DNA of 36,303 nt from contig JAGNSI010000006.1 of the NCBI GenBank assembly GCA_017988135.1, forward strand, positions 1 through 36,303. Reading direction: 5' to 3'. Made by a program: the position numbers and the translations under genes. Under the pieces are notes generated by a model. That model had not been told where the DNA came from. It was given only the letters and a program-made list of their open reading frames with translations, and searched no databases. Below are positions 7,931-32,360 of the stretch, piece after piece (positions within the stretch are counted from its first letter, which is position 1; every line of letters begins with the position of its first letter). The stretch is from Pseudarcicella sp. (lineage in GTDB: Bacteria > Bacteroidota > Bacteroidia > Cytophagales > Spirosomataceae).

Positions 7931-7967
7931 ATTATCTTTTTTTGATAAAAATTTTATTACATCACAC

Positions 7968-8681: not shown

Positions 8682-8732
8682 TGAATTTCTATTTGTTTAG
8701 TTTCAACATTAATACCATAGAAAACACAAAGT

Positions 8733-12887: not shown

Positions 12888-12909
12888 AGTGAAAGGCTTT
12901 GTTTGAAAT

Positions 12910-12942
12910 AAAAAATGCCAGCCTGAAACTCTGACATTTTTT
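12910..12942. terminator. Hairpin terminator between the phosphohexomutase and cysteine desulfurase
   Basis: AAAAAATG (12910-12917) pairs with CATTTTTT (12935-12942). After one mismatch CAG pairs with CTG around a 9-base loop. It lies about 30 bases past the stop of the phosphohexomutase gene, with a T run on the minus strand. Confidence 0.6.
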
Positions 12943-12970
12943 GTTTATTTATAGTGTTGTATTTTACCGA

Positions 12971-14371
12971 TTATACTTTTTTTGTTTGTATAATTTCTTT
13001 GATATCGCTGATTATTTTTTTTGCCAAATTGTCGGCTTTTGTTATCGCATCTGCTTCAGAATAAATTCTTATAATGGGTTCTGTGTTTGATTTTCTGAGG
13101 TGCACCCATTCTTTATCGAATTCAATTTTTAGTCCATCAATATTGTTGATTGGATTTTTTTTGTATTTCTTTTGTATTTCTTCTAAAACCTTATCTACAT
13201 TTATTTCGGGCGTAAGTTCTATTTTATTTTTAGAAATATAATATTCTGGATAACCTTTTCTGAGTACAGATATTTTCTTTTTAGATTTGGCTAAATGAGT
13301 AAGGAATAGTGCTATTCCTACAATGGCATCACGACCATAGTGCAACTCTGGGTAAATGATTCCTCCGTTGCCTTCGCCACCAATTACAGCATTGGTTTCT
13401 TTCATGAGAGTCACTACATTTACTTCGCCTACTGCAGATGCATGGTATTGTTCGCCAGCGGCTTCGGTAACGTCTCTTAAAGCTCTGGTTGAAGACAGGT
13501 TTGAAACGGTACTGCCTTTTTTATGTTTTAAGATATAGTCTGCAACGGCTACCAATGTGTATTCTTCGCCAAATGGTGTGCCGTCTTCACAGATAAAGCA
13601 AAGCCTGTCTACATCTGGATCTACAACTATACCAAGATCAAATTTTCCTTTTTCTATTGTTTTTATGATGTCGGTGAGGTTTTCGGGAACTGGTTCAGGA
13701 TTGTGTGCAAAGTTTCCTGTTGGCTCGCAATGTATTTGAGTGATTTGTGTTACACCCATTGCTTCTAAAAGTTGAGGTACGATAATACCTCCTGTTGAGT
13801 TTACAGCGTCTATTACTACGTTGAAGTTGGCTTTTCTTACTGCCGCAACATCTACAAGGTTTAATGCCAACACCTCGTTGATATGTTTGGTAAGCCAAGT
13901 GTCGTCTTGGGTGTATGAACCGATTTTTTTTACATCTACAAAATCAAAATCTTCTTCTTCAGCTATTTTCAATAAAGCTGTTCCGTCAGCATCTGAAATA
14001 AACTCGCCAGTTGCGTTCAATAGTTTGAGTGCGTTCCATTGAATAGGATTGTGGCTTGCTGTAAGTATGATGCCTCCTGCTGCTTTTTCTGCCGGCACGG
14101 CCATTTCTACAGTTGGAGTAGTGGATAAACCTAGGTCTACTACGTCAAAACCAATACTTTGCAGGGTAGAGCATACCAATTTGCCAATCATTTCACCAGA
14201 AAGTCTTGCATCTCTTCCGATGATAATGGTGTTACTGTTGTTGGTAGAATTTCTTTTTAGCCATGTAGCATAAGCAGCACTATATTTTACTACATCTACA
14301 GGTGTGAGAGAGTCGCCAACTTTCCCGCCTATGGTACCTCTAATTCCCGAAATTGATTTGATTAATGTCAT
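12971..14371 (-). CDS. glmM: Phosphoglucosamine mutase / phosphohexomutase
   Basis: A 466-residue alpha-D-phosphohexomutase. It has the phosphoserine loop ILTASHNPIQWNALK (S106), the metal loop DPDVDRLCF (D251, D253, D255), the sugar-binding loop GEGNGGIIYPE (near 330-340), and the phosphate-binding C-terminal loop LRKSNTEPIIRIYSEA. The N-terminal SISGIRGTIGG also fits. The likely reaction is glucosamine-6-phosphate to glucosamine-1-phosphate for peptidoglycan and LPS precursors; the related phosphomannomutase/phosphoglucomutase activity cannot be excluded by eye. It is a monocistronic-looking minus-strand gene with a candidate promoter at 14441-14448 and a terminator at 12910-12942. Confidence 0.9.
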   Translation of the reverse strand: MTLIKSISGIRGTIGGKVGDSLTPVDVVKYSAAYATWLKRNSTNNSNTIIIGRDARLSGEMIGKLVCSTLQSIGFDVVDLGLSTTPTVEMAVPAEKAAGGIILTASHNPIQWNALKLLNATGEFISDADGTALLKIAEEEDFDFVDVKKIGSYTQDDTWLTKHINEVLALNLVDVAAVRKANFNVVIDAVNSTGGIIVPQLLEAMGVTQITQIHCEPTGNFAHNPEPVPENLTDIIKTIEKGKFDLGIVVDPDVDRLCFICEDGTPFGEEYTLVAVADYILKHKKGSTVSNLSSTRALRDVTEAAGEQYHASAVGEVNVVTLMKETNAVIGGEGNGGIIYPELHYGRDAIVGIALFLTHLAKSKKKISVLRKGYPEYYISKNKIELTPEINVDKVLEEIQKKYKKNPINNIDGLKIEFDKEWVHLRKSNTEPIIRIYSEADAITKADNLAKKIISDIKEIIQTKKV

Positions 14372-15232: not shown

Positions 15233-18200
15233 ATGGACAAAAAAGCATTAATAGTTTGTAAGATTTTTATACCAATATTTTTGATTTTGACTGGTTTTGT
15301 AAATTCATCAAAAGCACAGACAAGGGTAATTACTGGTCGTGTAACGAATGGAAAATCTGAGTCATTATCTAACGTTACAGTTCATCTCAAAGGAAAAAAT
15401 ACTGTTTCGACAACCAATGAAACTGGAGATTACAGTATAACGGTTCCAGTGAGCAAGGCAACACTTATTTTCAGAAGAGTGGGTTTTGAAGTGCGTGAAA
15501 TAGCTCTAGATGACAATGTGTTGTTAAATGTTGAGTTGGTAGAAATAATAAAAGAGTTGGAAGATGTTGTTGTAGTGGGTTATGGTACTATAAAAAAATC
15601 GGATTATGCTGGTGCTAGTTCCACTTTTAAAATGAAACCCAACAACGAAAATAGAGTTGTGTCGGTAGCAGAAGCTCTACAAGGTAAAATTTCTGGCGTT
15701 CAGATACTTAACAATAGTGGTGAGCCTGGTTCAGGAATGACCTTTAATGTTAGAGGAAGCACTTCTATTACAGGTAATAATAGACCTTTGATAGTGGTAG
15801 ATGGGCAACCCATAGAAAGCGATTTAGATGCTACCTCGGCTGGAAACACAAATCAAGCAACTACTATACAACCTTCTGATCCTTTGGCTACTATAAATCC
15901 TAACGATATTAAATCTATGGAAATATTGAAAGACGCATCTGCAACTGCTATTTACGGAAGTCGTGGTGCTAATGGAGTTGTGATGATAACTACCAAGTCT
16001 GGTTCAGCAGGAAAAGAACAAATATCTTTTTCTACTAGAGTAGATATGAGTAGTGTGCCTAAAAAACTTAAAGTATTGAATGTGAAAGATTTTTTGATAT
16101 TCAAAGATTTAGCCATCCAAAATGATATAAATGACGGTCTTATTACTAACAGACCCGATTTTAAACCTTTAACTACCCAACAACTTGATTCTGCAACAGC
16201 TACAAACAATACAAATTGGCAAGATTTGATTTTTTCAAATGCTGTTTCTCATGAACATAATTTGAGTATTTCAGGTGGGAACGGTAAAAGTAATTTTATG
16301 TTTAGTGGTAATTATTCAGACCAAAACAGTGTTATTCGAAATGCATATTATCGTAAAGGTTCTTTAAGGTTTAATTACTTTACTGAATTAGGTTCAAAAA
16401 TGCGTATAGATTTTAGGACTTCATATGCTCCAGCTTCTCGTAGCTATGCTTCACAATCTAATACTAGTGGTGATGGAGGGAGTTCTTTGGTAGCATCTGC
16501 AATATCACTAAGCCCTCAAAAAATACCTTTTGAAGACAATGGAGATGTAGATTTGTTATTTACTAATAATCCACAGACCATTATCGAAAAAGTAAAAGAT
16601 ATTACTGCTATTAACAATTTGATCAGCAATATGAGTTTGGAATATAAATTTAATAAGAATTTCAATTATAAACTAACAGGTTCTTACAATCTTGTGCGTT
16701 CTGAGCGTGAGCAGTATTGGCCTCGTGGTACTACACAGGGGGATAATTTGGGAGGTTCAGCTTTAGTTGCTAACAATGAAAATAGTAATATGCAGGTAGA
16801 TCATGTTTTTTCATTTTTAAATACATTTAAAAAGCATTCTGTAAATGCGGTTGCTGCGTATTCTTTTCAAGAATGGAACACACGTTCTTTTAGTGTTGTG
16901 AATGGTGGATTTCCTTCAGATGAATTGTTGAACTATAATTTAGCTGCAGCTCAGTCACCAGGTGTTTCCTCTAATTCCGACAGAACAAGGGCTTTGTCTT
17001 CTATATTGGGTAGGGTTAATTATGCTTTTAATAAGGTTTATAATGTTACTCTTACTGGAAGATACGATGGCTCTAGTCGCTTAGCTAATGGTAACAAATG
17101 GGCTTTTTTCCCAGCCATTGGTTTAGGATGGAATATAATGAATGAGAAATTTATAAAACTACCAGAATCTATATCTTTACTTAAATTAAGGGCAAGTGCA
17201 GGGCTTTCTGGTAACGAAAATATAGGCATTGGTGCCACACAATCTCTTTACAATATAAATTATAATGCAGTAGGAAATACTACCCAAACAGGTTATAGTT
17301 TAGCATCATTTAATAATCCTTATTTGACTTGGGAAAAAACGCTTCAATATAATTTGGGTTTAGAAATTGGTTTGCTTAACGATCGCTTTTCACTTTCAAT
17401 TGACGCTTACAAAAAGATTACAACAGATTTGTTGATTAATTTAAGTTTACCTGCTTCGTCTACATTTAATGATTTTAACACAAATATTGGAAAAGTTGAA
17501 AATAAAGGTATAGATATTGAACTTAATGTCAATATTTTAAAAGGCAAATTCAAATGGGATGCAAATGCTAATATTTCATTTTTAGACAACAAAGTGATTA
17601 GTTTAGGGCAAAGTACAAAGGAAATATATGGTTCAAGTGTTATTTCTGCAGGAAATGCACTTAATCAACCGGTTACTATAGCTACTATAGGGAACTCTAT
17701 GTCATCTTTTTTGGGATACAAAACAGAAGGGGTATTCCAAAATCAAGCTCAGGTAGATTCAAGTGCCGACAAAGGAGCCAAACCAGGTCACATACGTTAT
17801 GTAGATCTAAATAAAGATGGTAAAATTGATGCCGAAGATAGAACTATAATAGGCAATGCTATACCTGATTATACATTTGGCTTTGGAAGTAATTTATCTT
17901 ACAAAGGTTTCAGTCTTTCATTTACATTTTTAGGTAGTGTAGGGAATAGCCTTTTAAATTTAAATCAATGGTATAGCGGTTCATTAAACTCTACTACATT
18001 GAATAGTAATCAATTTCAAGAAGCTTTTGATAATAGCTGGAAAGGAGAAGGTACTAGTAATAAATACCCAAAACCATCATCAATATCTACTAGATTTGGG
18101 ACAAAATTGCCTGATTTTTTAGTTGAAGAAGCCTCCTTTTTACGCTTACAAAATTTAAATTTTGGCTATACTTTTAATAAATTAAGTGCCTTGAGGCTCA

Positions 18201-18370
18201 AATCTATTAGGCTTTATGTTTCAGGAACAAACTTGTTTACAATAACTAAATACTCAGGTTATGATCCTAATATTAATGCTTTCGGCTCGAAGCCTTTGAT
18301 GAATGGTATTGATTTTGGTACAATTCCTCAGGCAAGAACAATTTCACTTGGTTTAGTAGTTAACTATTGA
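15233..18370 (+). CDS. SusC-like TonB-dependent outer-membrane receptor
   Basis: A 1045-residue outer-membrane channel that imports oligosaccharides with its SusD partner, powered by TonB. The signal peptide ends near residue 28 (NSSKA/QT). A carboxypeptidase-regulatory-like domain spans about 30-110 (VITGRVTNGKSESLSNVTV). The SusC-type motif DVVVVGYGTIKKSD follows near 112-125, then the plug (about 120-240, with VRGSTSITGNNRPLIVVDG and IEILKDASATAIYGSRGANG-like sequence), and a C-terminal barrel ending TISLGLVVNY. These are hallmarks of the SusC/RagA group. It is the first gene of the locus and is followed 14 bases later by susD. The ATG at 15233 gives a sound signal peptide. Confidence 0.96.
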   Translation: MDKKALIVCKIFIPIFLILTGFVNSSKAQTRVITGRVTNGKSESLSNVTVHLKGKNTVSTTNETGDYSITVPVSKATLIFRRVGFEVREIALDDNVLLNVELVEIIKELEDVVVVGYGTIKKSDYAGASSTFKMKPNNENRVVSVAEALQGKISGVQILNNSGEPGSGMTFNVRGSTSITGNNRPLIVVDGQPIESDLDATSAGNTNQATTIQPSDPLATINPNDIKSMEILKDASATAIYGSRGANGVVMITTKSGSAGKEQISFSTRVDMSSVPKKLKVLNVKDFLIFKDLAIQNDINDGLITNRPDFKPLTTQQLDSATATNNTNWQDLIFSNAVSHEHNLSISGGNGKSNFMFSGNYSDQNSVIRNAYYRKGSLRFNYFTELGSKMRIDFRTSYAPASRSYASQSNTSGDGGSSLVASAISLSPQKIPFEDNGDVDLLFTNNPQTIIEKVKDITAINNLISNMSLEYKFNKNFNYKLTGSYNLVRSEREQYWPRGTTQGDNLGGSALVANNENSNMQVDHVFSFLNTFKKHSVNAVAAYSFQEWNTRSFSVVNGGFPSDELLNYNLAAAQSPGVSSNSDRTRALSSILGRVNYAFNKVYNVTLTGRYDGSSRLANGNKWAFFPAIGLGWNIMNEKFIKLPESISLLKLRASAGLSGNENIGIGATQSLYNINYNAVGNTTQTGYSLASFNNPYLTWEKTLQYNLGLEIGLLNDRFSLSIDAYKKITTDLLINLSLPASSTFNDFNTNIGKVENKGIDIELNVNILKGKFKWDANANISFLDNKVISLGQSTKEIYGSSVISAGNALNQPVTIATIGNSMSSFLGYKTEGVFQNQAQVDSSADKGAKPGHIRYVDLNKDGKIDAEDRTIIGNAIPDYTFGFGSNLSYKGFSLSFTFLGSVGNSLLNLNQWYSGSLNSTTLNSNQFQEAFDNSWKGEGTSNKYPKPSSISTRFGTKLPDFLVEEASFLRLQNLNFGYTFNKLSALRLKSIRLYVSGTNLFTITKYSGYDPNINAFGSKPLMNGIDFGTIPQARTISLGLVVNY

Positions 18371-18384
18371 TATTATAAAAAAAT

Positions 18385-20052
18385 ATGAACTGGATATATA
18401 AATATTGCTTTTTGTTTTCTATAGCATTGCAGCTAACCTCATGTAATATAGATGAGAAAATTATTGATAAACCTACTGATGCAAACATCAAAACTGAAAA
18501 TGATGTAACTGCTTTGGTAAGTGGAATGTATGGTAACTTACAAGAAGGATCTTGTTTTAGAACCAATGGAATGCACCTGCTTTTTCTTTGTGCAGACGAT
18601 TTTTATTCAGACTCTGGTTCGTTTTTTCGAATTAGTAATCATGACTTTGATGGTAGCCTTTCCTCTGTACAGGGTTTTTGGAATTCACTTTATCTAACAA
18701 TCAGAAATTCAAATAATGTTATCAATGTACTTGATAATTTAGAATTATCTGAAAAATTCGAGAAAAGAGCATATGGAGATGCTTATTTTGTAAGAGCTTT
18801 GTGTTATTTTTATTTGGTGCGTTTGTACGGAGGCGTTCCTCTTGTTACACAACCTGTGAATGTAAATAGTAATTTTTATCAACGTAGAAATACTGTTGAT
18901 GAGGTTTATAGTCAGATTTTTAAAGACTTTAAAAAAGCTTCTACAAGTTTACCAATCGCTAAAGATCTATTAGCAAGTGAGCTAGGAAAAGCAACTAAAG
19001 GGGCGTCTCATGCATTGCTTGCTAAGTCATATTTGACATATGGTAATTATCAAAGTTTGAATAATTTGCCATCAGATTCTAGCTTTATTTATTCGTCGAA
19101 CTATGCTGATTCTGTTATTAATAGCAATCAATATGCACTTTTAGATAATTTTGCTGATTTGTTTGATGTTAAAAAAGAAGTAAATGCCTACAAGGAAGTA
19201 ATCTTTGGAATTAGATATACTAGAGATTTTTTTCGCTCGCAATTGAAGTCTACTGGTTCAGAGTTCGCTCCTAACTTGTCTCCTCAAAATTTTTCTAATG
19301 TTGCTGGTACAACCACTACTAATGGTAATGGCAATATGAAAGTACATCCTTACATAGTTGATTTTTATAGAACAGGTGATTATGCTGGAGATTATCGTGC
19401 CGATGCAACTTACACAACCAGAGGGTTTAATAAGAATAATGGTAAGTTTCATATAACTTTTCCTGGTGTTAAAGTAGCTAATACCGAAACTGTATCTGCT
19501 TGGGGACACATCAAGAAATATGTAGATGGTGAAGGCTTTGATTCTCGAAATCATGAAAACGACTTTTTTATATGCCGACTTGCAGATGTGCATTTGATTA
19601 AAGCTGAAGCAATGAACGAATTGTATGGACCCACAGCAGATGCGTATGCTAGTTTCAATAAAGTAAGAGAAAGAGCAAGGAAAGCTGATGGAACTGTTAG
19701 AACAACACCTGCAAATATTGTAACGGGTTTAACAAAAGAAGAATTTAGATTGAAAGTTTTTCATGAAAGAGAAGCTGAGCTTATAGGAGAAGGAGATAGA
19801 TTTTTTGATTTAGTACGTACTAAAAGTCCAGTAGATCCTAATAAAACTATGTTTGAATATAGGTTTTTTACCCTTTATCCGACATTATCTAAAAAAGCTC
19901 CAGTGTATAACAATACAACTAAAACTTGGAGTGAAACCAAGTCAATATTAGGTAACTATGATAAAGTATCGGTGAAACACAAACTTCTTCCGATACCTAT
20001 TTCTGAATTAATCAACAACCCAAATTTTGGAGATAATAATCCATTGTGGTAA
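18385..20052 (+). CDS. SusD/RagB-like surface glycan-binding lipoprotein
   Basis: A 555-residue outer-membrane lipoprotein that caps the SusC channel and binds the glycan. The lipoprotein signal ends in the lipobox LTSC with lipidated C20, followed by NIDEK, whose acidic residues suit surface export in this phylum. Family features are the early region TDANIKTENDVTALVSGMYG, the TPR-like segment AYGDAYFVRALCYFYLVRLYGGVPLV (quoted in part, about 130-155), and the C-terminal RagB/SusD region with VFHEREAELIGEGDRFFDLV (about 453-472) and LLPIPISELINNPN near the end. It forms a unit with SusC (14-bp gap). An 88-bp gap with a small inverted repeat separates it from the enzyme genes. Confidence 0.95.
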   Translation: MNWIYKYCFLFSIALQLTSCNIDEKIIDKPTDANIKTENDVTALVSGMYGNLQEGSCFRTNGMHLLFLCADDFYSDSGSFFRISNHDFDGSLSSVQGFWNSLYLTIRNSNNVINVLDNLELSEKFEKRAYGDAYFVRALCYFYLVRLYGGVPLVTQPVNVNSNFYQRRNTVDEVYSQIFKDFKKASTSLPIAKDLLASELGKATKGASHALLAKSYLTYGNYQSLNNLPSDSSFIYSSNYADSVINSNQYALLDNFADLFDVKKEVNAYKEVIFGIRYTRDFFRSQLKSTGSEFAPNLSPQNFSNVAGTTTTNGNGNMKVHPYIVDFYRTGDYAGDYRADATYTTRGFNKNNGKFHITFPGVKVANTETVSAWGHIKKYVDGEGFDSRNHENDFFICRLADVHLIKAEAMNELYGPTADAYASFNKVRERARKADGTVRTTPANIVTGLTKEEFRLKVFHEREAELIGEGDRFFDLVRTKSPVDPNKTMFEYRFFTLYPTLSKKAPVYNNTTKTWSETKSILGNYDKVSVKHKLLPIPISELINNPNFGDNNPLW

Positions 20053-20085
20053 TAGCAATACTCATTATAAATTAAAAACAATATT

Positions 20086-20105
20086 TTTCCAAAGCGTTTT
20101 GGAAA
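20086..20105. repeat. Inverted repeat between susD and the GH43-like gene
   Basis: TTTCCAAA (20086-20093), loop GCGT, TTTGGAAA (20098-20105): a perfect 8-bp stem with a 4-base loop in the only sizeable gap of the locus, and no T run. It could stop exonucleases or partly separate expression of susCD from the enzymes. Confidence 0.5.
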
Positions 20106-20140
20106 CAAACAATCAACCCAAGTACTCATAAAAAAATAAA

Positions 20141-21304
20141 ATGAAAAATAATATTATTGTACTGCTAATCCTTTTGGTTTGCTCTTCAACTTTGGCACAA
20201 TATAATGCAGAAATTAAAAGTGAAAAGCAATTTAGTGATCCATTAGCACCTGTAGGAAACAAATCTCTTACAGTTCCTAATGTAGTGTCTCCGATTCTAG
20301 ATTATTGGATGAGAGATACTTATATGATGGCTGGTCCGGATGGTTATTATTACATGACAGGTACGACTTCTACACCTGGTAGAAAATTTCCATCTGGTAA
20401 TATTCATTGCTGGGATCATAACGATGGATTATACATGTGGCGTTCTAAAGATATGAAAAGTTGGGAAGCAATGGGCTTGATTTGGAGTTTTGACAAAGAT
20501 GCTGCAGATTGGCAACGTAACGGAAAACCAGTAAAACCAGGTGCTGTATCGCCAAACAAAGACCCATTAGATTCAATTTATAGGGCTGTATGGGCACCTG
20601 AGTTACATTACATAAAAAGCAAAAACAAATGGCTTATTATAGCTTGTGAGAATGGTGGAATAGGTTCTTTTGTATTAGAAAGCACTTCAGGTAAGCCGGA
20701 AGGTCCTTACAGAAATATAGCTGGAAACACCACAAAGCCAATTTTTGGTAATATAGATTTAGGTATGTTTGAAGACGAAAATGGTGATGTGTATTTGGTA
20801 GGTCACAACCATTTTATAGCAAAAATGAAAAGTGATTTGAGCGATATTGCAGAGCCATTTCAAAAAATCAAAGAAAGTCCTTACAGCCCAGAACCTTATA
20901 TAGAAGGTGTTTTTATTACCAAACAAAATGGTAAATACCAACTTTTACAAACCATTTGGTCTGTCAAAAAACAAGATGGTTCATACAGTTATTTAAGAGA
21001 CGACAAAAAAGACTTATCTTCTCTTTATAGCTACGACGTTGTTGTAGCAGAAAGTGATAATGTATATGGTCCTTACGGTAAAAGATATCCAGCAATTTTA
21101 GAGGGAGGTCATAACAACTTGTTCAAAGATTTTGATGGCAAGTGGTGGAGTACTACTTTTTTTAACCCTAGAGGTGCAAGAGGTGCAAAATATACAGTAA
21201 CTTGCAGGCCAGGATTAGTACCCGTAAAATGGGAAAAAGGTAAGCTTATGCCTGATCATAAAAGAGCCAAAAAGTTTTATAGTGCTTCGGTAAAGAAAAA
21301 ATAA
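20141..21304 (+). CDS. GH43-like five-bladed beta-propeller glycosidase, secreted
   Basis: A 387-residue protein with a cleavable signal peptide (ends near residue 19, STLA/QY). The sequence pattern is that of clan GH-F family 43 and relatives. The N-terminal blade has RDTYMMAGPDGYYYMTGT with D59 as likely general base. The family phrase RAVWAPELHYI is near 148-158. IDLGMFEDENGDVYLV supplies D206 as the likely pKa modulator, where most members have IDP. PYIEGVFITKQNGKYQLL supplies E255 as the likely general acid. GH43 enzymes cleave arabinofuranosides, xylosides or galactosides; related propeller families act on algal galactans, so specificity is open. It lies 7 bp before the next gene, in the locus with a sulfatase. 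Confidence 0.82.
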   Translation: MKNNIIVLLILLVCSSTLAQYNAEIKSEKQFSDPLAPVGNKSLTVPNVVSPILDYWMRDTYMMAGPDGYYYMTGTTSTPGRKFPSGNIHCWDHNDGLYMWRSKDMKSWEAMGLIWSFDKDAADWQRNGKPVKPGAVSPNKDPLDSIYRAVWAPELHYIKSKNKWLIIACENGGIGSFVLESTSGKPEGPYRNIAGNTTKPIFGNIDLGMFEDENGDVYLVGHNHFIAKMKSDLSDIAEPFQKIKESPYSPEPYIEGVFITKQNGKYQLLQTIWSVKKQDGSYSYLRDDKKDLSSLYSYDVVVAESDNVYGPYGKRYPAILEGGHNNLFKDFDGKWWSTTFFNPRGARGAKYTVTCRPGLVPVKWEKGKLMPDHKRAKKFYSASVKKK

Positions 21305-21311
21305 TTGTAAA

Positions 21312-22496
21312 ATGAAATATGTATTAGTAATAACAGCTTTTTTCTTTGCTGGTATTTGTAACATAAATGCTCAAGAAATTGGGTTGAATTTTAATCATAA
21401 TCCTGAATTTATTGATTTAAATGTTACCAGTAAATTGTCAAAAGCACAATGGATAAGAACTACACCTTTTATTTTTGAATACATAGATGGTAAAAAAGAT
21501 CCTGCTACAGCTCCAGGTTTACAAAATGTAATAGACGCTAAAACCAAAGGCTACAATGTAGCCTTTGGTTTTAGATGGGATTTTAGAAAATATGAACTTT
21601 CAATTCCTGCCCCAAATTCTGAAACAGAAAAAAAATACTTTAATACAGTTTTGAAAATATTGAACAGAGTAGGGCCTTATATCGATATTTTTAAATTAGG
21701 TAACGAACCTAATTTGGAAACAATGGAGGCAGATTTGCAAGTAAGTAGTAACGGTTCTGTACCCTTGGTAGTTTTTACAGAAAGATTACTTACACAAGTT
21801 GTTTTGCCATATTATGCTTCAAACCCTACGCTTAAAAGACCTGATATTTATGTAGGTTCATTGCCACGTTTGTTTTTAAAGTCAGATCAAGTAAAACCTG
21901 GTGTAATAGGTTTAATTAAAATGGCAGAGCAAAATGCCAACATCAAAGGTTTGTCCGTTCATTTGCACATTAGCGACTCTACGGAAATGGATAAAGCTTT
22001 TACTTTTGTGAGATCTATAATGCCAAGTAAACCGATTATTATTCCTGAATTTTCTTTATTCCGTTTGTACAATTCGCATATGGGAGATAAAATAGGAGAT
22101 AGTGAAAAAGGTATAGCTTTTGCAAAAAAATACGCATACAATCCTTCTATGAAGTTGTATGACTGGTATTCTAAAGTAAATACTGAGCTAGTAGATTCAG
22201 CACAATGGAACGATTTTTTTGCTAGTCGAAAATGGTTTCCACAACATTTTCTACAAACTTATTATAGATATTTTCAAAAATATGGCGTAATATTGGCTAC
22301 CTATGGATTTGTTGGACAGTCGTCACCCAAGAAAGTTACTAAACAAACACCTTCTTGGTTTATCAATGCTATTTATCCTATCAAAACCTTAAAGTCTCAA
22401 TCAGACGGTTCATTTACTCCAAACCCACTATGGCATGATGATTTTGTAGATATCGTAAACAAAGGTAATAGCTGGAAAAAGAGTCAAAATAAATAA
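21312..22496 (+). CDS. Putative clan GH-A (TIM-barrel) glycosidase, family not recognised
   Basis: A 394-residue secreted protein (signal peptide about 1-20, ending INA/QE). I do not recognise a named family. It has the hallmarks of a (beta/alpha)8 retaining glycosidase. IFKLGNEPNLE (126-136) fits the end of strand 4 with N131-E132 as the acid/base pair. PIIIPEFSLF (241-250) fits the end of strand 7 with E246 as the nucleophile. The intervening LSVHLHISDS (214-223) fits strand 6. The 114-residue spacing of the two Glu is normal for clan GH-A. Its place between a GH43-like enzyme and a sulfatase in one operon (7- and 9-bp gaps) supports a role in breaking the same glycan. The catalytic role is inference; family membership would need a search. 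Confidence 0.65.
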   Translation: MKYVLVITAFFFAGICNINAQEIGLNFNHNPEFIDLNVTSKLSKAQWIRTTPFIFEYIDGKKDPATAPGLQNVIDAKTKGYNVAFGFRWDFRKYELSIPAPNSETEKKYFNTVLKILNRVGPYIDIFKLGNEPNLETMEADLQVSSNGSVPLVVFTERLLTQVVLPYYASNPTLKRPDIYVGSLPRLFLKSDQVKPGVIGLIKMAEQNANIKGLSVHLHISDSTEMDKAFTFVRSIMPSKPIIIPEFSLFRLYNSHMGDKIGDSEKGIAFAKKYAYNPSMKLYDWYSKVNTELVDSAQWNDFFASRKWFPQHFLQTYYRYFQKYGVILATYGFVGQSSPKKVTKQTPSWFINAIYPIKTLKSQSDGSFTPNPLWHDDFVDIVNKGNSWKKSQNK

Positions 22497-22505
22497 GATT
22501 ATTTT

Positions 22506-24017
22506 ATGAGATTATTCGTCAAATCGCTATTGTTAAGTGCCATTTCTCTGTTTCTTGAGCATAATGTTTTAGCTCAAAAAAAACAACCCAACATTATTTT
22601 GTTTTATGTAGATGATTTGGGATATGGAGATTTGAGTTGTTATGGAGCCACTTCTGTAAAGACGAAACAAGTAGATCTACTGGCAAAAAATGGCATTCAG
22701 TTTACAGATGCACATTGTACTGCTTCTACCTGTACGCCTTCACGATTTAGCTTACTTACAGGTGTTTATGCTTTTAGAAACAATGCTTCTGTGTTGCCAG
22801 GTGACGCACCGTTGATCATAAAGCCAGAAATGCCAACTGTAGCATCTATGCTGCAACGTAATGGTTATAAAACTGCTGTGGTAGGGAAATGGCATTTAGG
22901 TCTTGGAAATGGAAAAATCAATTGGAATGGAAGTATTTCGCCTGGGCCTAATGAAATTGGCTTTGGTTACTCTTTTATTATTCCTGCTACAACAGATAGG
23001 GTGCCAACCGTTTTTGTTGAAAATGGAAAAGTACCTAATCTTGATCTTTCTGATTCTATAAAAGTTCAATATGATAAAATACTGGGCGATGAACCTACTG
23101 GCTTGACACATCCAAATCTATTAAAACAAAAAGCAGACGCTCAGCACAGCAATACCATAACCAATGGCATTAGCAGAATTGGCTACATGACAGGCGGTAA
23201 AGCAGCTCGTTGGATAGACGAAGATATTCCTTTTGTACTCAATCAAAAAGCCAAAACATTTATTCAAGATAATGTTAGCAATCCATTTTTCTTGTTTTAC
23301 CCTTTTCCAAATATTCATGTTCCTCGTACACCGAATAAGAAATTTGTTGGTGCTACCACCATGGGTGCAAGAGGCGATGCCATTGCCGAAATGGATTGGA
23401 TGGTAGGTGAAATAATGCATCAGCTCGATTCACTGAAATTGCTTGAAAATACAATTGTTATCTTTAGTAGCGACAATGGTCCCGTTCTGGACGATGGCTA
23501 CGAAGACCAAGCTGAGCAATTGGTTGGTAATCATAAGCCAGCTGGAATTTATAGAGGAGGTAAATACAGTGCTTATGAAGCTGGTACAAGAGTGCCAATG
23601 ATTGTACAATGGAAAGGAAAAATAAAACCAAACAAAAGCAAAGCGTTGGTTTCGCAAGTAGATTTATACAAAACTTTGGCAACATTACTAAATTTTCCAC
23701 TGTTGAGTCAAGAGGCAAAAGATAGTCAAAATCAGCTCAAATCTTGGATGGGGAAATCCTTAATTGGAAGAAATTGGCTTTTGGAAGAATCTTATACTTT
23801 GTCTATAAGAACTGCAAAATGGAAATATATCAACCCGCATGAAAAAGGTACTCCTTCATGGTTGGTAAATAAAAAAGTTGAAACAGGCTTGATGAAAACA
23901 GAACAGTTGTATGATTTGATAAAAGATCCACAAGAAAAAAATAATGTGCTGCTTACTAATGTAGCAGAAGCTCAAAAATTAAAATTACAACTCAAGTCAG
24001 TAATTGAAAGAAAGTAA
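22506..24017 (+). CDS. Sulfatase, S1 family, secreted
   Basis: A 503-residue sulfatase with a cleavable signal peptide (ending VLA/QK near residue 23). It has metal-binding YVDDLGYGD (34-42, D36 and D37), the formylglycine motif CTPSRFSLLTG with C76 as the residue to be converted, GKWHLGLG near 126-133 with the conserved Lys and His, and SSDNGPVLDDGY for the second metal-binding site. It would remove sulfate esters from the glycan handled by this locus, allowing the glycosidases to proceed. It needs a formylglycine-generating enzyme or anaerobic maturase, not seen in this window. It is the last enzyme gene of the operon, 9 bp after the GH-A-like gene and 131 bp before the regulator gene. It differs clearly from the lipoprotein sulfatase at 4884-6335. 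Confidence 0.93.
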   Translation: MRLFVKSLLLSAISLFLEHNVLAQKKQPNIILFYVDDLGYGDLSCYGATSVKTKQVDLLAKNGIQFTDAHCTASTCTPSRFSLLTGVYAFRNNASVLPGDAPLIIKPEMPTVASMLQRNGYKTAVVGKWHLGLGNGKINWNGSISPGPNEIGFGYSFIIPATTDRVPTVFVENGKVPNLDLSDSIKVQYDKILGDEPTGLTHPNLLKQKADAQHSNTITNGISRIGYMTGGKAARWIDEDIPFVLNQKAKTFIQDNVSNPFFLFYPFPNIHVPRTPNKKFVGATTMGARGDAIAEMDWMVGEIMHQLDSLKLLENTIVIFSSDNGPVLDDGYEDQAEQLVGNHKPAGIYRGGKYSAYEAGTRVPMIVQWKGKIKPNKSKALVSQVDLYKTLATLLNFPLLSQEAKDSQNQLKSWMGKSLIGRNWLLEESYTLSIRTAKWKYINPHEKGTPSWLVNKKVETGLMKTEQLYDLIKDPQEKNNVLLTNVAEAQKLKLQLKSVIERK

Positions 24018-24045
24018 TCCTATACCTGTTCCCTATGTTACATAT

Positions 24046-24055
24046 CCACATGTGG
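24046..24055. promoter_or_regulatory. Palindrome CCACATGTGG before the regulator gene
   Basis: A perfect 10-bp palindrome in the 131-bp gap between the sulfatase and the hybrid sensor gene, with a related ATGTGTGG a little further on. It could be an operator or part of a weak hairpin. No TAnnTTTG element is found nearby. Confidence 0.3.
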
Positions 24056-24148
24056 TCTTTTAGATTATGTGTGGTATGTTTTTTTAAAAGCATTTCATTT
24101 TTTAGATTATATTAGATAAAATATAATATTTATATAAAGAGAAACTAT

Positions 24149-27100
24149 ATGAAGTTGGCGAATTTTTTATTGGTGTTGTTGATGTTAGTAATTTTCAAAC
24201 AACATAACTACGCCCAACAAATAAATTTTCGACATTATTCGGTTACAGAGGGCTTACCATCAAGCACCATTCGGGCAATAATCCAAGACTCAAAAGGTTA
24301 TAAATGGTTTGGTTCTAAAAATGGATTAAGTCGTTTTGATGGTTACACTTTTAAGAATTTTCAAAATCAGCCCAACAACCCTCAATCTATAGGTAATAAT
24401 TTTATACATTGTATTACACCTTTAGACAACAATCACTTACTCATAGGTACCGAAAATGGTGTTTATCAGCTAGATCTTCAAACCGAAATTTTTACTAGTT
24501 TTCTGCCATTAAAAGGGAAAACTGTATTGGATATCCTTAAAGATAAACAAGGTAATTTATGGATAGCAACACGTTTGAACGGATTGTTTTTTTATGAATT
24601 TCAAAGCCAAAAAATACAAAATTTTATTGTTCAAAAAAATAATAGAACCGTTTCATCCAATCAAATTTCAAAATTAGCTCAAGACAATTTAGGTAATATT
24701 TGGATAGGTACTTTAGGTGCTGGGATAGATATCTACAATTTTGTAAATAAACAGTTTAGTAGTCTTAACTCTTCAAATAGTAATCTAAGTGCCAATCATA
24801 TCAATACCATTTATAAAGGATTAGACGGTGCCATCTGGATAGGAACTATGAACGGAGGATTGTGCAAGTGGAACGCTAAAGCCAATACTTTTTATTGCTT
24901 TCAGTACAATGAGACAAAACCTTTCTCTATGAAAGACAATATTGTAAGGTCTGTTTTGCAAACAAAGCCCAATGAATTGATGGTAGGCACTGAAAGAGGA
25001 TTACATTTTCTTGATATAGCAACTGGAAAAATTACAGTTTATACCCACCAAGATAACAATCCTACTAGTATTAGTGACAATGCTATATATTCTATTTGTG
25101 CAGACCAAAATAAAACGGTTTGGGTAGGTACTTTTTTTGGAGGCGTCAATAGTTTCAATGAATCAGCTTCCGCTTTTGAGCTGTTTTCGCCCAATGGAAA
25201 TCCAAATGCCATTTCAGGAAAAGCAGTCAGTAGTTTTTTAGAGCAAAAACCAGGTGAGTTTTGGGTAGGAACTGAAGATGCAGGATTACATTATTTTAAT
25301 GCTAATACTAAAAAATTTCTGAAATATCCTTTTAGTCCCTATCAACAGAAACTTTCATATCATAACATACATGCCCTCACAAAAGATAAAAAAGGGAATA
25401 TCTGGGTTGGAATTTTTGCAGGTGGTGTAAATATGCTAAATCCTCAAACAGGCAGTGTGAAATATTTTAAACAAAATCCTCAAAATTCACAATCACTGAG
25501 CAGTAATAATGTTTTTAGCTTGTATGAAGATAAAGATGGTGAAATGTGGGCAGGTACTGATAAGGGTTTAAATAAAATTGATCAACAAAAAGGTTTTTTG
25601 GATAATATTTCACAAAAATATGCTGCTAATACCATTGTGTATGATATTTATGAAGACAATAGTAAAAAGCTTTGGTTGGCAACCTACAACAACGGTTTGG
25701 TGGTTTTTAATAAAAAAACAAAAACTTGGAATAGAATTATTGCAGGTAGTGGTAATAAGTATTTGGCTAGTAATAAGCTCACTTGCTTGGCAGACGATCA
25801 CAATGGAAATCTGTGGGTAGGTTCAGATGGCGGTGGTTTGCATAAATTTAATTTTCAAACCCAACAAATAAAATTATATAATACTCAGCTTGGAATCAAA
25901 GCAAATGTAATATACGGTTTACAGCAAGATGATTCAGGGCAATTGTGGGTTTCTACCAATGATGGGCTTTATGTTATAGACCTTGCGACAGACAAAGTGA
26001 AACACTATACCGCTCAAGATAATTTACAAGGGCAGCAGTTTAACTATAAAGCACTTTATAAAGCAAATGATGGAAAGCTTTTAGCGGGTGGAATTATGGG
26101 TTTCAATAGTTTTTATCCCGAAAAAATAATTAAAAGTAAACCCATAAGTTCTGTAACTTTTACCAATTTTCAGCTTTTCAATAGCGATGTTTTACCAGCT
26201 CAGACTGACAGCCCTTTGCAGAAACAAATAGCTTATACCGATGAAATAGAGCTATCTCATAGTCAATCGGTAATGGGTTTTGAGTTTTCGGTTTTGAATG
26301 CTATAATACCAGAGAAAATAAGTTATGCCTACAAAATGGACGGTTTTGATGACGACTGGAATTACATCGGTAATCAGCATAAAGCTATTTATACCAATCT
26401 TTCGCCAGGTAAATATATATTTAAAGTAAAAGCAACCAACGATGATAATAATTGGGATGTGCCTGAAAAAACCATTCAAATAGTTATCAATCCGCCTTTT
26501 TATCGTTCTATACTGGCTTATATTCTTTATTTTTTGCTTTTGGGTGTTATTTTATATTTGATTTACAAATATGCCAATGAATATATAAATCGTCAAAACC
26601 AAGCGAAACTAGAACGTCTTAAAAATCAAGAAGAACAAGATTTTTATACCCGTAAAATTGAGTTTTTTACAGAAATGGCTCACGAAATACGTACGCCACT
26701 TTCGTTGATAATTGCCCCACTAGAAAAGTTGTTGGAGCTTAATAAATGGGATAACGAAGAAATGGAACAGCTGAAAGTAATGGATGAAAATGCAGATAGA
26801 TTGCTTAATCTAGTCAATCAATTGCTCGATTTCAGAAGAATAGAAAGTGACGCTTATACGATTCATAAAGAAGAAATTGAATTACTATCTTTGGTAAGAA
26901 CTGTATACTCAAGGTTCTCTTCACTTCAATACAAAAAAGATCTAGAATTTACACTCACCTCCAAAACCAGTAGCTTGCAACTCCTTGCAGACTCTGAAGT
27001 AATCAATAAAGTACTCAGTAATTTGCTAATCAATGCATTTAAATTTGCCAGAAGTAGTGTAAATATTACTGTAAATGAAGTTGAAAAAACCTCAGAAGGT

Positions 27101-28195
27101 GAAGGTGTGGTAACTATTAGTGTACAAGACGACGGAATAGGTATTCCAACAAAAGATTTGAAAAATATTTTTAAGAAATTTTTCACAACAAAATCTAGTA
27201 ACTATGTTTATCACAACCACGGAGGTACAGGTATTGGACTTGCATTGGCATGTTCATTAGCAGAAAAACACGGTGGTCGCCTATACGTAGAAAGTGTAGA
27301 AGGAGAACGCACAGTGTTTACATTCGAACTACCAATTGAAGGAGAATTGAATATTCCTGCTAAAGTTGATAAAAACGAAATAGTACAAAACGATTTATTA
27401 AATGCACCAACTATATTGCTGGTTGATGACGATGCCTCAATGCTAGATTTTATAGCAAAAAGTTTTAGGTCAGAAACTTTGAATGTGATTACTGCAACAA
27501 ACGGGAAAGAAGCCTTGTTATTACTGGCAAACAACCATGCAGATATAATAGTTTCTGATGTAATGATGCCAGAAATGGATGGTTTGGAGTTTTGTAATGC
27601 TGTGAAAACCAGTATAGAATATAGTCATATTCCATTGATATTGCTTACAGCCAAAGGAAATTCAGAAGCAGAAATTCAAGGTATTCAATCTGGAGCAGAT
27701 GCTTATATCATGAAGCCTTTCAAATGGAAATATTTATTGGCTGTTGTGAAAAATCTAATAGACTCAAGAGGGCGTTTGCAAAAGAAGTTTTCTGATTCTC
27801 CACAAACGGGTGTAAACGATATTACTAACAATCAAAAGGATAAAGAGTTTATCGAAAAAATAGTAGCTATTATCGAAAAAAGAATGATAGATCCTCAGTT
27901 ATCTGTTGAAGAGCTAAGTAAGGATATGTCTATGAGTAGGTCTACTTTGCACAAAAAAATAAAAGCTATGGTGGGTATGGGCCCCAATGAGTTGATCCGT
28001 TTGGTTCGTTTGAAACAAGCAGCTCGAATGTTGCTGACGGGTCAAAATAACATCAGTGAGGTGTCTTATCTGGCAGGATTTAGTTCTCCGTCTTATTTTT
28101 CAAAATGTTTTTTACAACAGTTTAAAATGACACCTAAAGAATACACTGACAAGCAATCTACTTCTTTAGATTTGGATATAGATAATCTGCTGTAA
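24149..28195 (+). CDS. Hybrid two-component system regulator (HTCS): sensor kinase, receiver and AraC-type DNA-binding domain
   Basis: A 1348-residue inner-membrane protein that senses a glycan fragment in the periplasm and activates the locus. Domains in order: signal peptide or signal anchor (1-22); two Reg_prop beta-propellers (about 28-660, many repeats such as GNLWIATRLNGLFFY and GNIWIGTLGAGIDIY); Y_Y_Y domain (about 695-780, YKMDGFDDDWNYIG); one membrane span (about 787-808); HisKA with H845 in MAHEIRTPLSL; HATPase (N-box NLLINAFKFA, G1 DDGIGIP, G2 GGTGIGLALA); receiver (acidic DDD near 1091, D1137 in SDVMMPEMDG, conserved Lys in MKPFKW); and a C-terminal AraC HTH (about 1240-1335, LAGFSSPSYFSKCFLQQFK). 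All catalytic motifs are present. It is the usual regulator of SusCD loci and lies downstream on the same strand. Confidence 0.97.
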   Translation: MKLANFLLVLLMLVIFKQHNYAQQINFRHYSVTEGLPSSTIRAIIQDSKGYKWFGSKNGLSRFDGYTFKNFQNQPNNPQSIGNNFIHCITPLDNNHLLIGTENGVYQLDLQTEIFTSFLPLKGKTVLDILKDKQGNLWIATRLNGLFFYEFQSQKIQNFIVQKNNRTVSSNQISKLAQDNLGNIWIGTLGAGIDIYNFVNKQFSSLNSSNSNLSANHINTIYKGLDGAIWIGTMNGGLCKWNAKANTFYCFQYNETKPFSMKDNIVRSVLQTKPNELMVGTERGLHFLDIATGKITVYTHQDNNPTSISDNAIYSICADQNKTVWVGTFFGGVNSFNESASAFELFSPNGNPNAISGKAVSSFLEQKPGEFWVGTEDAGLHYFNANTKKFLKYPFSPYQQKLSYHNIHALTKDKKGNIWVGIFAGGVNMLNPQTGSVKYFKQNPQNSQSLSSNNVFSLYEDKDGEMWAGTDKGLNKIDQQKGFLDNISQKYAANTIVYDIYEDNSKKLWLATYNNGLVVFNKKTKTWNRIIAGSGNKYLASNKLTCLADDHNGNLWVGSDGGGLHKFNFQTQQIKLYNTQLGIKANVIYGLQQDDSGQLWVSTNDGLYVIDLATDKVKHYTAQDNLQGQQFNYKALYKANDGKLLAGGIMGFNSFYPEKIIKSKPISSVTFTNFQLFNSDVLPAQTDSPLQKQIAYTDEIELSHSQSVMGFEFSVLNAIIPEKISYAYKMDGFDDDWNYIGNQHKAIYTNLSPGKYIFKVKATNDDNNWDVPEKTIQIVINPPFYRSILAYILYFLLLGVILYLIYKYANEYINRQNQAKLERLKNQEEQDFYTRKIEFFTEMAHEIRTPLSLIIAPLEKLLELNKWDNEEMEQLKVMDENADRLLNLVNQLLDFRRIESDAYTIHKEEIELLSLVRTVYSRFSSLQYKKDLEFTLTSKTSSLQLLADSEVINKVLSNLLINAFKFARSSVNITVNEVEKTSEGEGVVTISVQDDGIGIPTKDLKNIFKKFFTTKSSNYVYHNHGGTGIGLALACSLAEKHGGRLYVESVEGERTVFTFELPIEGELNIPAKVDKNEIVQNDLLNAPTILLVDDDASMLDFIAKSFRSETLNVITATNGKEALLLLANNHADIIVSDVMMPEMDGLEFCNAVKTSIEYSHIPLILLTAKGNSEAEIQGIQSGADAYIMKPFKWKYLLAVVKNLIDSRGRLQKKFSDSPQTGVNDITNNQKDKEFIEKIVAIIEKRMIDPQLSVEELSKDMSMSRSTLHKKIKAMVGMGPNELIRLVRLKQAARMLLTGQNNISEVSYLAGFSSPSYFSKCFLQQFKMTPKEYTDKQSTSLDLDIDNLL

Positions 28196-28551: not shown

Positions 28552-29430
28552 TTAAACTACGCTTTCTGTAGCAACTTCTGGAGCTATTTTTTTGACTAAT
28601 CCTTGTAAAACTTTTCCTGGTCCGCACTCAACAAATAGTGTTGCACCGTCTTTTACCATGTTTTCAACAGACATTGTCCATCTCACCGTTCCTGTTAGTT
28701 GGGCAATAAGGTTGTCTTTAATCGTGCGAACATCTGTAGACGCTTTAGCGTTTATGTTTTGGTAAATTGGACAGATAGGAGAAACAATATTGGTAGATTC
28801 TATAGCTCCTGCTAATTGTTCAAGGGCAGGTTGCATCAAAGGTGAATGAAAAGCACCTCCAACTGGTAAAGGTAATACTCTTTTTGCACCAGCAGCTTTA
28901 AGGGCTTCGCCTGCTTTTTCTATTCCTGCAAACGTTCCTGAAATTACTACTTGTCCTGGGCAATTGAAATTGGCTGGTACTACTATTTCATCTGTGATGT
29001 CAGCACATGTTTTTTCAATAACATCATCTGCTAGTCCTAGTACAGCCGCCATTGTAGATGGTTGTAGTGCGCAAGCTTTTTGCATAGCATCTGCTCTTTG
29101 AGCAACTAATTTTAATCCATCTTCAAAGCTTATCGCACTAGCTGCTACCAATGCCGAAAATTCTCCCAATGAATGTCCTGCTACCATGTCAGGAGCAAAT
29201 GTTTCGTTTTGTTTGGCTTGTATTACCGAGTGAATGAATATTGCAGGCTGAGTGACATTGGTTTGTTTGAGGTCTTCTGCTGTTCCCTCAAACATAATGT
29301 CAGTAATTCTGAATCCCAATATATCATTGGCTTTTTCGAATAATTTTTTTGCTGTTTCAGAACTTTCATAGAGTTCTTTGCCCATTCCTACAAATTGAGA
29401 TCCTTGTCCTGGGAAAATGTATGCTTTCAT
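28552..29430 (-). CDS. fabD: Malonyl CoA-acyl carrier protein transacylase
   Basis: A 292-residue FabD that moves malonyl groups from CoA to acyl carrier protein to start fatty-acid elongation in the cytoplasm. The N-terminus KAYIFPGQGSQFVGMG is diagnostic. The nucleophile is S87 in GHSLGEFSALVA, and the catalytic His is H195 in GGAFHSPLM. QPAIF (61-65) and VECGPGKVLQGLVKK near the C-terminus also match. Length and motifs are normal. No other fab genes are adjacent, as is common in this phylum. It lies downstream of the large exported protein on the same strand with a 92-bp gap and a possible promoter of its own. Confidence 0.96.
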   Translation of the reverse strand: MKAYIFPGQGSQFVGMGKELYESSETAKKLFEKANDILGFRITDIMFEGTAEDLKQTNVTQPAIFIHSVIQAKQNETFAPDMVAGHSLGEFSALVAASAISFEDGLKLVAQRADAMQKACALQPSTMAAVLGLADDVIEKTCADITDEIVVPANFNCPGQVVISGTFAGIEKAGEALKAAGAKRVLPLPVGGAFHSPLMQPALEQLAGAIESTNIVSPICPIYQNINAKASTDVRTIKDNLIAQLTGTVRWTMSVENMVKDGATLFVECGPGKVLQGLVKKIAPEVATESVV

Positions 29431-29499
29431 CTATTATATATTTTTAGCCTCTTTATTGATTTTAAGGCTTATTTTAAGGTGTTTTAAATTATCAAAGAA

Positions 29500-29507
29500 C
29501 AAACTTA
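29500..29507 (-). promoter_or_regulatory. Candidate -7 element for fabD
   Basis: Reads TAAGTTTG on the minus strand, an exact TAnnTTTG match 70 bases before the fabD start. No -33 TTG is visible at the normal distance. Confidence 0.4.
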
Positions 29508-29522
29508 AATAATATTTTTTTA

Positions 29523-32333: not shown

Positions 32334-32360
32334 AGTTGTTTGTAATAATTGAAATCTCAT

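Follow-up and report, generated by a model that had tools for sequence, protein, structure and literature searches.

Positions 15233-28195 of the window (the whole 36,303-nucleotide stretch of Pseudarcicella sp. DNA that was analyzed) were found by ORF calling to contain six collinear ORFs, all on the plus strand and separated, 5' to 3', by gaps of 14, 88, 7, 9 and 131 bp. The features are as follows.

15233-18370, plus strand: SusC/RagA TonB-dependent importer, 1045 aa (TIGR04056, Plug, barrel and CarbopepD_reg_2)
18385-20052, plus strand: SusD-like surface lipoprotein, 555 aa (PF07980, PF14322; lipobox LTSC at Cys20)
20141-21304, plus strand: GH43 glycoside hydrolase, 387 aa, with signal peptide (PF04616; catalytic D59, D206 and E255)
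21312-22496, plus strand: GHA, a clan GH-A-type enzyme by its barrel model, 394 aa, with signal peptide (E132/E246)
22506-24017, plus strand: S1_15-type sulfatase, 503 aa, with signal peptide (PF00884; CTPSR at C76; phmmer matches to PDB sequences)
24046-24074, plus strand: stem-loop resembling a terminator, lying after the enzyme genes and before the regulator gene (13 pairs, then a T-rich tail)
24149-28195, plus strand: hybrid two-component system regulator (HTCS), 1348 aa (Reg_prop/Y_Y_Y, HisKA-HATPase, receiver and AraC HTH)

An initial annotation, made from the sequence, had described a six-gene, one-strand polysaccharide utilization locus (PUL) consisting of SusC, SusD, GH43-like and GH-A-like enzymes, a sulfatase of family S1 and a hybrid sensor/AraC regulator, and the ORFs, gaps and family matches agree with this description. 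As in Sus-type PULs, susC and susD are adjacent and are linked both to carbohydrate-active enzymes (GH43 and the S1 sulfatase, with GHA as a putative third) and to a regulator of the carbohydrate-sensing type. SusC scores 800 bits against TIGR04056 (cut-off 368), SusD matches PF07980 (SusD_RagB) at 5e-35 and PF14322 at 1e-25, and the regulator ORF carries Reg_prop, Y_Y_Y, HisKA, HATPase_c, Response_reg and HTH_18 domains. All six frames are full length and the catalytic residues are intact. No lipobox was found on GH43, GHA or the sulfatase (judged by pattern only), and the three enzymes look periplasmic, which suggests uptake of ready-made oligosaccharides.

The stem-loop is only suggestive as a terminator, because the total number of promoter-like and terminator-like sites is what chance would give. 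The flanking tRNA-Gln was considered as a site of mobile insertion, and the idea was dropped: a search for an att site gave, as the longest direct repeat shared with the stretch before susC, 14 T-rich bases, and shuffled sequences reach 15.

The three enzymes

The GH43 ORF matches Glyco_hydro_43 at 7e-21, with 75 bits against a curated cut-off of 32. Its catalytic Asp, Asp and Glu are invariant in 12 homologues, and it is 60-72% identical to its orthologues. A PDB profile search for its subfamily returned weak matches only (3kst, 6mly and 5msx).

The sulfatase ORF matches the Sulfatase family at 3e-52. Among PDB sequences compared by phmmer, it is nearest over its whole length to S1_15 members: 9bas (S1_15A; 8.5e-184, 615 bits), 9bau (S1_15B; 6e-166, 556 bits) and 6s20 (BT3333; 6e-160, 536 bits), followed by 7oze, 7p26, 7ozc, 9s7x and 9s85 at 415-518 bits, the next match being at 162 bits. 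The formylglycine motif C-x-P-S-R is kept as CTPSR, and alignment with 6s20 shows that the galacto-recognition triad, which contacts O3/O4 of 6S-Gal/GalNAc (PMC6994673, PMC10154612), is kept as D164/R165/H214. Note that the paper numbers the triad D173/R174 and H225, and that the only Asp-Arg pair there in the 6s20 PDB chain is 175/176. By residue alignment, pocket residue W452 is the equivalent of Trp471 of S1_15A, which packs on galactose-6-sulfate (PMC12549532). Because the formylglycine motif and the Asp/Arg/His triad are kept, the best reading of the sequence is a sulfatase that would target 6-sulfated galactose (or GalNAc). The earlier proposal of a sulfated-glycan target is thereby supported and sharpened to a galactose-6-sulfate type. 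S1_15 members are also active on GalNAc6S. An FGE homologue with GSFLCNDSYC lies on contig C84 of the same genome, so formylglycine maturation is possible.

GHA has no match in Pfam, NCBIfam or PDB sequences, in keeping with the initial annotation, which had left it unassigned and guessed it to be GH-A-like; structure prediction and fold comparison back that guess. At pLDDT 89, the predicted structure forms a (beta/alpha)8 barrel whose eight parallel-barrel strands come in order. N131-E132 follows strand 4 (residues 126-129) and E246 lies on strand 7 (residues 242-248), so that the model combines the barrel with an acid/base Glu (Asn-Glu) and a nucleophile Glu at the positions of clan GH-A. 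The putative acid/base E132 is encoded at 21705-21707 and the putative nucleophile E246 at 22047-22049; both residues are invariant in 12 GHA orthologues and in the Rhizobium, Catenovulum and Bacteroides relatives. Structural comparison by VIA gave Z of 19-21 and rmsd of 3.2-4.8 over 270-310 residues against GH164, GH5 and GH1 chains, and Foldseek gave E values of about 2e-5 with TM of only 0.4-0.5. Naming a GH family by fold was attempted and abandoned, as the barrels of GH164, GH5_18, GH5_7, GH1, GH42 and klotho score within about 2 Z units of one another; identity to the named GH-A families (GH164, GH5, GH1 and GH42) is 6-15%, and none stands out.

The model supports a clan GH-A-type enzyme of putative hydrolytic activity. 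GHA might instead be a non-catalytic or differently acting barrel (a binding protein or transglycosidase), leaving bond cleavage to GH43 alone. A common fold does not show function, and GHA has no sequence relative of known activity in the three collections searched, but the Asn-Glu-Pro after strand 4, the Glu on strand 7, His217, His219 and Trp349 are invariant among relatives down to 21-27% identity, and we regard this alternative as unlikely.

A larger conserved locus

The initial annotation could match no described locus. This holds for the literature and family libraries searched; the GH43-GHA-S1_15 arrangement itself was found in at least 11 other genomes. The three genes are neighbors in the same order in eight Chitinophaga-type loci (L002-L008 and L013) and in Pedobacter sandarakinus (L009), and two Arachidicoccus genomes (L010 and L012) have one or more extra genes ahead of S1_15. 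This recurrence indicates that the grouping is more than chance. More distant GHA and S1_15 pairs occur in Bacteroides finegoldii, Catenovulum and genome G782. A Rhizobium homologue of GHA has dehydrogenase, hydrolase and transporter genes as neighbors, which give no substrate hint, and a search for GHA in phages gave no match. GHA was found in 1 of 395 genomes of the phylum and 1 of 222 of the family (its own genome both times) and in 2 of 390 of the order; these values should be considered lower bounds, as the coarse first screen may overlook distant members. The family is small and conserved.

The Chitinophaga-type, Pedobacter and Arachidicoccus loci carry the same enzyme set behind a SusC/SusD pair, and the Chitinophaga loci, like ours, include an HTCS. 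Unlike ours, the Chitinophaga loci have two additional enzymes, a GH5-like one and an S1_4-type sulfatase that is a lipoprotein, and those of Pedobacter, Arachidicoccus and C. cymbidii have an additional GHA paralogue of about 407 aa with a lipoprotein-like N-terminus. GH2 enzymes are also among the additions. In two related loci the GH2 is nearest to 7sf2 and the beta-D-galactofuranosidase 9j6n, and one of the two has an arabinofuranosidase-like protein; neither gene is in our locus. Elsewhere in the genome, read as selected contigs, are a 47% homologue of that GH2, S1_4-type homologues and an araA/kinase/GH27-like/S1 cluster, and the Chitinophaga GH5-like protein has no match.

The SusC of our locus is 33-36% identical to those of the related loci, which are 47-92% identical among themselves, and its SusD is 27-32% identical to theirs. 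The sensor domain of the regulator, in contrast, is 56-60% identical to the Chitinophaga regulators. Judged by these values, the SusC/SusD pair is not orthologous to the pairs of the Chitinophaga, Pedobacter and Arachidicoccus loci, which are orthologous to one another, whereas the enzymes and sensor are. On sequence comparison, then, the locus is a reduced, importer-swapped form of a larger conserved locus. The earlier argument from only two glycosidases to a defined oligosaccharide or a few linkages holds only in part, because related loci are larger by an S1_4-type sulfatase, by GH5-like or GH2 enzymes, or by the lipoprotein GHA paralogue.

Reduction could have gone as far as decay, with the surface enzyme, the S1_4-type sulfatase and the original importer lost and growth no longer supported. 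The genes that Chitinophaga, Pedobacter, Arachidicoccus and G782 have and our locus lacks, the GH5-like protein without a match and the non-orthologous importer fit such a remnant. We consider it very unlikely, given that all six frames are full length, the catalytic residues are intact, the gaps are short, a SusC/SusD pair is in place, and S1_4-type and GH2 homologues lie elsewhere in the genome.

Substrate and comparison with described systems

From the genes, domains, conserved catalytic residues, gene order and non-orthologous importer we infer the activities, locations and substrate. The probable role of the six-gene cluster is the import and breakdown of a glycan that bears 6-sulfated galactose. 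In the mechanism that we propose, SusC/SusD would bring in oligosaccharides made elsewhere; GH43 would strip a side-chain pentose or furanose in the periplasm; the GH-A-type barrel, acting there as a retaining enzyme through E132/E246, would cleave a glycosidic linkage of the core; the S1_15 sulfatase would take the O6-sulfate off terminal or free galactose; and the hybrid regulator would sense a periplasmic breakdown product and turn the operon on. A compact PUL working in this manner on oligosaccharides containing 6-sulfated galactose from a branched glycan is the reading we hold with reasonable, though not high, confidence. Counted in its favor were the GH2 of two related loci, one of them with the arabinofuranosidase-like protein, its homologue in the same genome and the araA/kinase/GH27-like/S1 cluster; counted against it were the weak solved neighbors of GH43 and the lack of a single family from the GHA fold match.

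Our best single guess at the substrate, a tentative one, is a Cladophora-type sulfated (xylo)galactoarabinan or a related sulfated galactan from green algae or plants. Cladophora polysaccharides contain galactofuranose, 6-sulfated galactose and 3-sulfated arabinopyranose, and freshwater members exist (PMC5694217, PMC7550628). Other S1_15 neighborhoods (Emticicia, Hymenobacter, a second Catenovulum plasmid and a second B. finegoldii record) place it in the context of a fucosidase, GH16, GH2 or hexosaminidase, which means that the polymer cannot be read from S1_15 alone. The locus might be a fragment of a pathway for a sulfated galactan of red algae, of the lambda-carrageenan or porphyran type: S1_15A and S1_15B, galactose-6-sulfate sulfatases for lambda-carrageenan, are the nearest of solved structure, and 56-58% homologues occur in Pseudoalteromonas carrageenovora and Catenovulum. 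This is improbable: no GH150, GH110 or S1_8 enzyme was seen among the window proteins, the related loci searched hold other families, and the nearest relatives of the locus are in Chitinophaga, Pedobacter and Arachidicoccus, which are not known as seaweed degraders. An animal-type glycan with GalNAc6S or Gal6S (chondroitin 6-sulfate or mucin O-glycan) is quite improbable as well. BT3333 and BT1624, of the same sulfatase subfamily, act there (PMC6994673, PMC10154612), and B. finegoldii has a GHA, S1_15 and GH43 locus, but no polysaccharide lyase, GH88, hexosaminidase or fucosidase was found among the window or related-locus proteins searched, and the described chondroitin pathway is without GH43.

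Pairing of the sulfatase with the barrel spans soil, gut and seaweed bacteria (Chitinophaga, Pedobacter and Arachidicoccus, one Bacteroides, and a Catenovulum derived from an alga); this distribution suggests a sulfated galactose glycan common to them. It is conceivable, at somewhat less than even chances, that GHA founds a glycoside hydrolase family for such glycans, undescribed as judged against Pfam, NCBIfam and PDB sequences, with lipoproteins cleaving at the cell surface and soluble members completing the degradation in the periplasm; our locus would have retained the sensor and just the periplasmic half, working with another importer. If GHA is indeed a new hydrolase, it would be a tool for reading sulfated galactans.

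Described sulfated-glycan PULs are mostly from marine and gut bacteria. Those for land-plant glycans are rare in gut Bacteroides, as one study emphasizes (PMC8406133). Pseudoalteromonas distincta U2A has a lambda-carrageenan PUL (PMC12549532) whose S1_15 sulfatases share their galactose-6-sulfate pocket residues with ours. Only S1_15 is shared: that PUL uses GH150, GH110, GH2 and S1_8, with no mention of GH43, whereas the enzymes of our locus are GH43, GHA and one S1_15. The Bacteroides thetaiotaomicron chondroitin/dermatan PUL with BT3333 (PMC6994673) shares SusC/SusD, an HTCS and an S1_15 6-O-sulfatase, and differs in having polysaccharide lyases and GH88 in place of GH43 and GHA. The sulfated arabinogalactan-protein PULs of Bacteroides plebeius are presented, in the part of the account used here (PMC8406133), with S1_8 and S1_14 sulfatases, GH43_24 and GH145 and without S1_15 or GHA; what that part shares with our locus is the action of a sulfatase and a GH43 on a sulfated, galactan-containing plant glycan.

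Gene content and flanks

The six + strand genes of the polysaccharide utilisation locus (PUL) span 15233-28195, with intergenic gaps of 14, 88, 7, 9 and 131 bp. The six genes listed in the initial annotation were borne out by ORFs and profile searches, which returned SusC, SusD, GH43, a fourth ORF without a match (GHA), an S1 sulfatase and a 1348-aa hybrid two-component regulator. Features outside the PUL are as follows.

4884-6335, - strand: second S1 sulfatase, CAPSR at residue 93, adjoining tRNA-Pro
11754-14371, opposite strand to the locus: cysteine-desulfurase-type and phosphoglucosamine-mutase-type genes, unrelated flank
155 bp past the regulator gene: tRNA-Gln
28552-32360, opposite strand to the locus: acyltransferase and protein with a type IX secretion tail, unrelated flank

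The second sulfatase is closest to 7an1/7ana and shares just 26% identity with the PUL sulfatase. Separately, Alpha-E domain, proteasome-type peptidase and transglutaminase-like genes lie in series at 6959-9605 (+), resembling a peptide-modification cluster; no adjoining ATP-grasp gene was found among the proteins searched.

GH43 and a putative glycosidase, GHA

Searches with GHA, singly or as a profile, matched nothing in Pfam, NCBIfam or the PDB sequences. Its AlphaFold2 model (16 sequences, pLDDT 89) is a barrel with N131-E132 after strand 4 and E246 on strand 7, the clan GH-A layout, in agreement with the earlier description of a GH-A-like enzyme. Foldseek and VIA-align placed the model among GH164, GH5, GH1 and klotho barrels (Z 19-21), with no clear nearest family. 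Residues G130-N131-E132-P133, E136, H217, H219, E246, S248 and W349 are unchanged across relatives down to 21-27% identity. Relative to Pfam, NCBIfam and PDB sequences, we call GHA an unassigned family, of clan GH-A type as modeled, and one enzyme family in the locus worth testing. The GH43 triad D59/D206/E255 is invariant across 12 homologues, and solved relatives are distant by PDB comparison.

Predicted sulfatase specificity and candidate substrates

The structures closest to the 503-aa PUL sulfatase are S1_15: 9bas (S1_15A), 9bau (S1_15B) and 6s20 (BT3333). Alignment showed the CTPSR site kept at C76, together with D164, R165 and H214. In BT3333 the counterparts of these three residues bind galacto sugars at O4 and O3 (PMC6994673; PMC10154612). 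The tryptophan W452 corresponds to W471 of S1_15A, against which galactose-6-sulfate stacks in a closed pocket (PMC12549532). We infer an exo-acting 6-O-sulfatase for galactose-6-sulfate, possibly GalNAc6S. The sulfated target proposed initially is thereby sharpened to a galactose-6-sulfate type, and that interpretation as a whole is only partly supported. An FGE-type protein (cysteine motif GSFLCNDSYC) is encoded on contig C84 of the same genome, so sulfatase maturation is possible. This 2.7-Mb genome has 17 sulfatase matches, one of which is a C-terminal fragment lying at the end of a contig.

Chitinophaga loci carry a second sulfatase, closest to 7all and P. aeruginosa arylsulfatase, and we take it to be of S1_4 type. 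The S1_4 enzyme BT4683 is active on 3-sulfated galactose (PMC10154612). A Sinomicrobium GH2, 56% identical to that of G782 (a related genome of the same order), is closest to 7sf2 and the beta-D-galactofuranosidase 9j6n, whose group is furanose-specific (PMC12243196). The window's own genome encodes a 47% homologue of this GH2, and has GH43 genes adjoining sulfatases on contigs C48 and C175. Two of its gene runs are listed here.

C23, L030:362-6553, - strand: S1 sulfatase, GH27-like protein (motif MDYCW), FGGY sugar kinase, L-arabinose isomerase
C48, L033:3341-8563, - strand: GH43, S1_4-like sulfatase (48% to the Chitinophaga one), further sulfatase

The C23 run may reflect use of a sulfated arabinose glycan. 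On C48 lies a second locus pairing GH43 with sulfatases, and SusD genes are few in this genome. Apart from lacking C6, L-arabinopyranose shares the configuration of galactose, and so 3-O-galactose sulfatases could, by analogy, act on its 3-sulfated form. In Cladophora polysaccharides, which also occur in fresh water, 3-sulfated L-arabinopyranose is combined with xylose, galactofuranose and some 6-sulfated galactose (PMC5694217, PMC7550628), and water hyacinth heterogalactans contain galactose-6-sulfate (PMC3269731). A Cladophora-type polysaccharide is our tentative, still rather doubtful, candidate substrate; a carrageenan-like substrate and an animal glycan each seem improbable to us.

Related loci and a proposed importer substitution

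Among 84,980 species genomes scanned, 12 loci were recovered. Chitinophaga and one Flavihumibacter-labelled MAG have the order SusC-SusD-GH43-GHA-S1_15-S1_4 type-GH5 like-HTCS (hybrid regulator); the GH43, GHA and S1_15 genes of Pedobacter and Arachidicoccus likewise lie downstream of SusC/SusD. One locus, that of Chitinophaga pinensis YS-16, is split into many short frames, perhaps by assembly errors. G782 carries S1_4 type, GH2, SusC, lipoprotein-like GHA, SusD, an arabinofuranosidase-like protein and S1_15 (57%). Among annotated records, S1_15 (47%) adjoins a GHA homologue (26%) in Bacteroides finegoldii, with GH43 three genes further, and S1_15 (58%), GHA (25%) and window-type GH43 (30%) fall within 23 kb in Catenovulum adriaticum. 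Of 72,556 plasmid records, 4 contain GHA and 24 contain S1_15 (E up to 1e-60); two carry both, closely spaced. The exceptions are the Sinomicrobium locus, with other S1 sulfatases and no S1_15 within the stretch examined, and a Rhizobium GHA homologue with no sulfatase seen nearby.

Relatives also have S1_4-type sulfatases or GHA paralogues whose N-termini resemble those of lipoproteins; these are presumably surface enzymes. The ~407-aa paralogues, in which an N-terminal Cys stands in a lipoprotein-like setting, sit immediately ahead of SusC or between SusC and SusD, and are likely surface partners of a periplasmic GHA.

L003:2955-4187: GHA paralogue, Chitinophaga-type locus
L009:1844-3067: GHA paralogue, Pedobacter sandarakinus
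L010:2691-3914: GHA paralogue, Arachidicoccus
L012:2737-3960: GHA paralogue, Arachidicoccus
L044:9390-10625: GHA paralogue

By sequence patterns, the window GH43, GHA and S1_15 have signal peptides and no lipobox. These three enzymes and the regulator's sensor share about 56-72% identity with their Chitinophaga counterparts. SusC and SusD of Chitinophaga, Pedobacter, Arachidicoccus, Sinomicrobium and G782 are mutually orthologous (47-92% and 44-92%), whereas those of the window show 33-36% and 27-32% to the related loci, as low as an unrelated pair from its own genome, and are not orthologous. No better copy of the related loci's SusD was found elsewhere in that genome. Since the importer is not orthologous and the signal peptides of the enzymes lack a lipobox, we interpret the locus as a sensor and a periplasmic finishing module that work with a substituted importer, enzyme locations being predicted from sequence patterns alone. 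SusC/SusD would then take in oligosaccharides freed by other cells or other enzymes. The window locus is a variant of an arrangement already present in other genomes.
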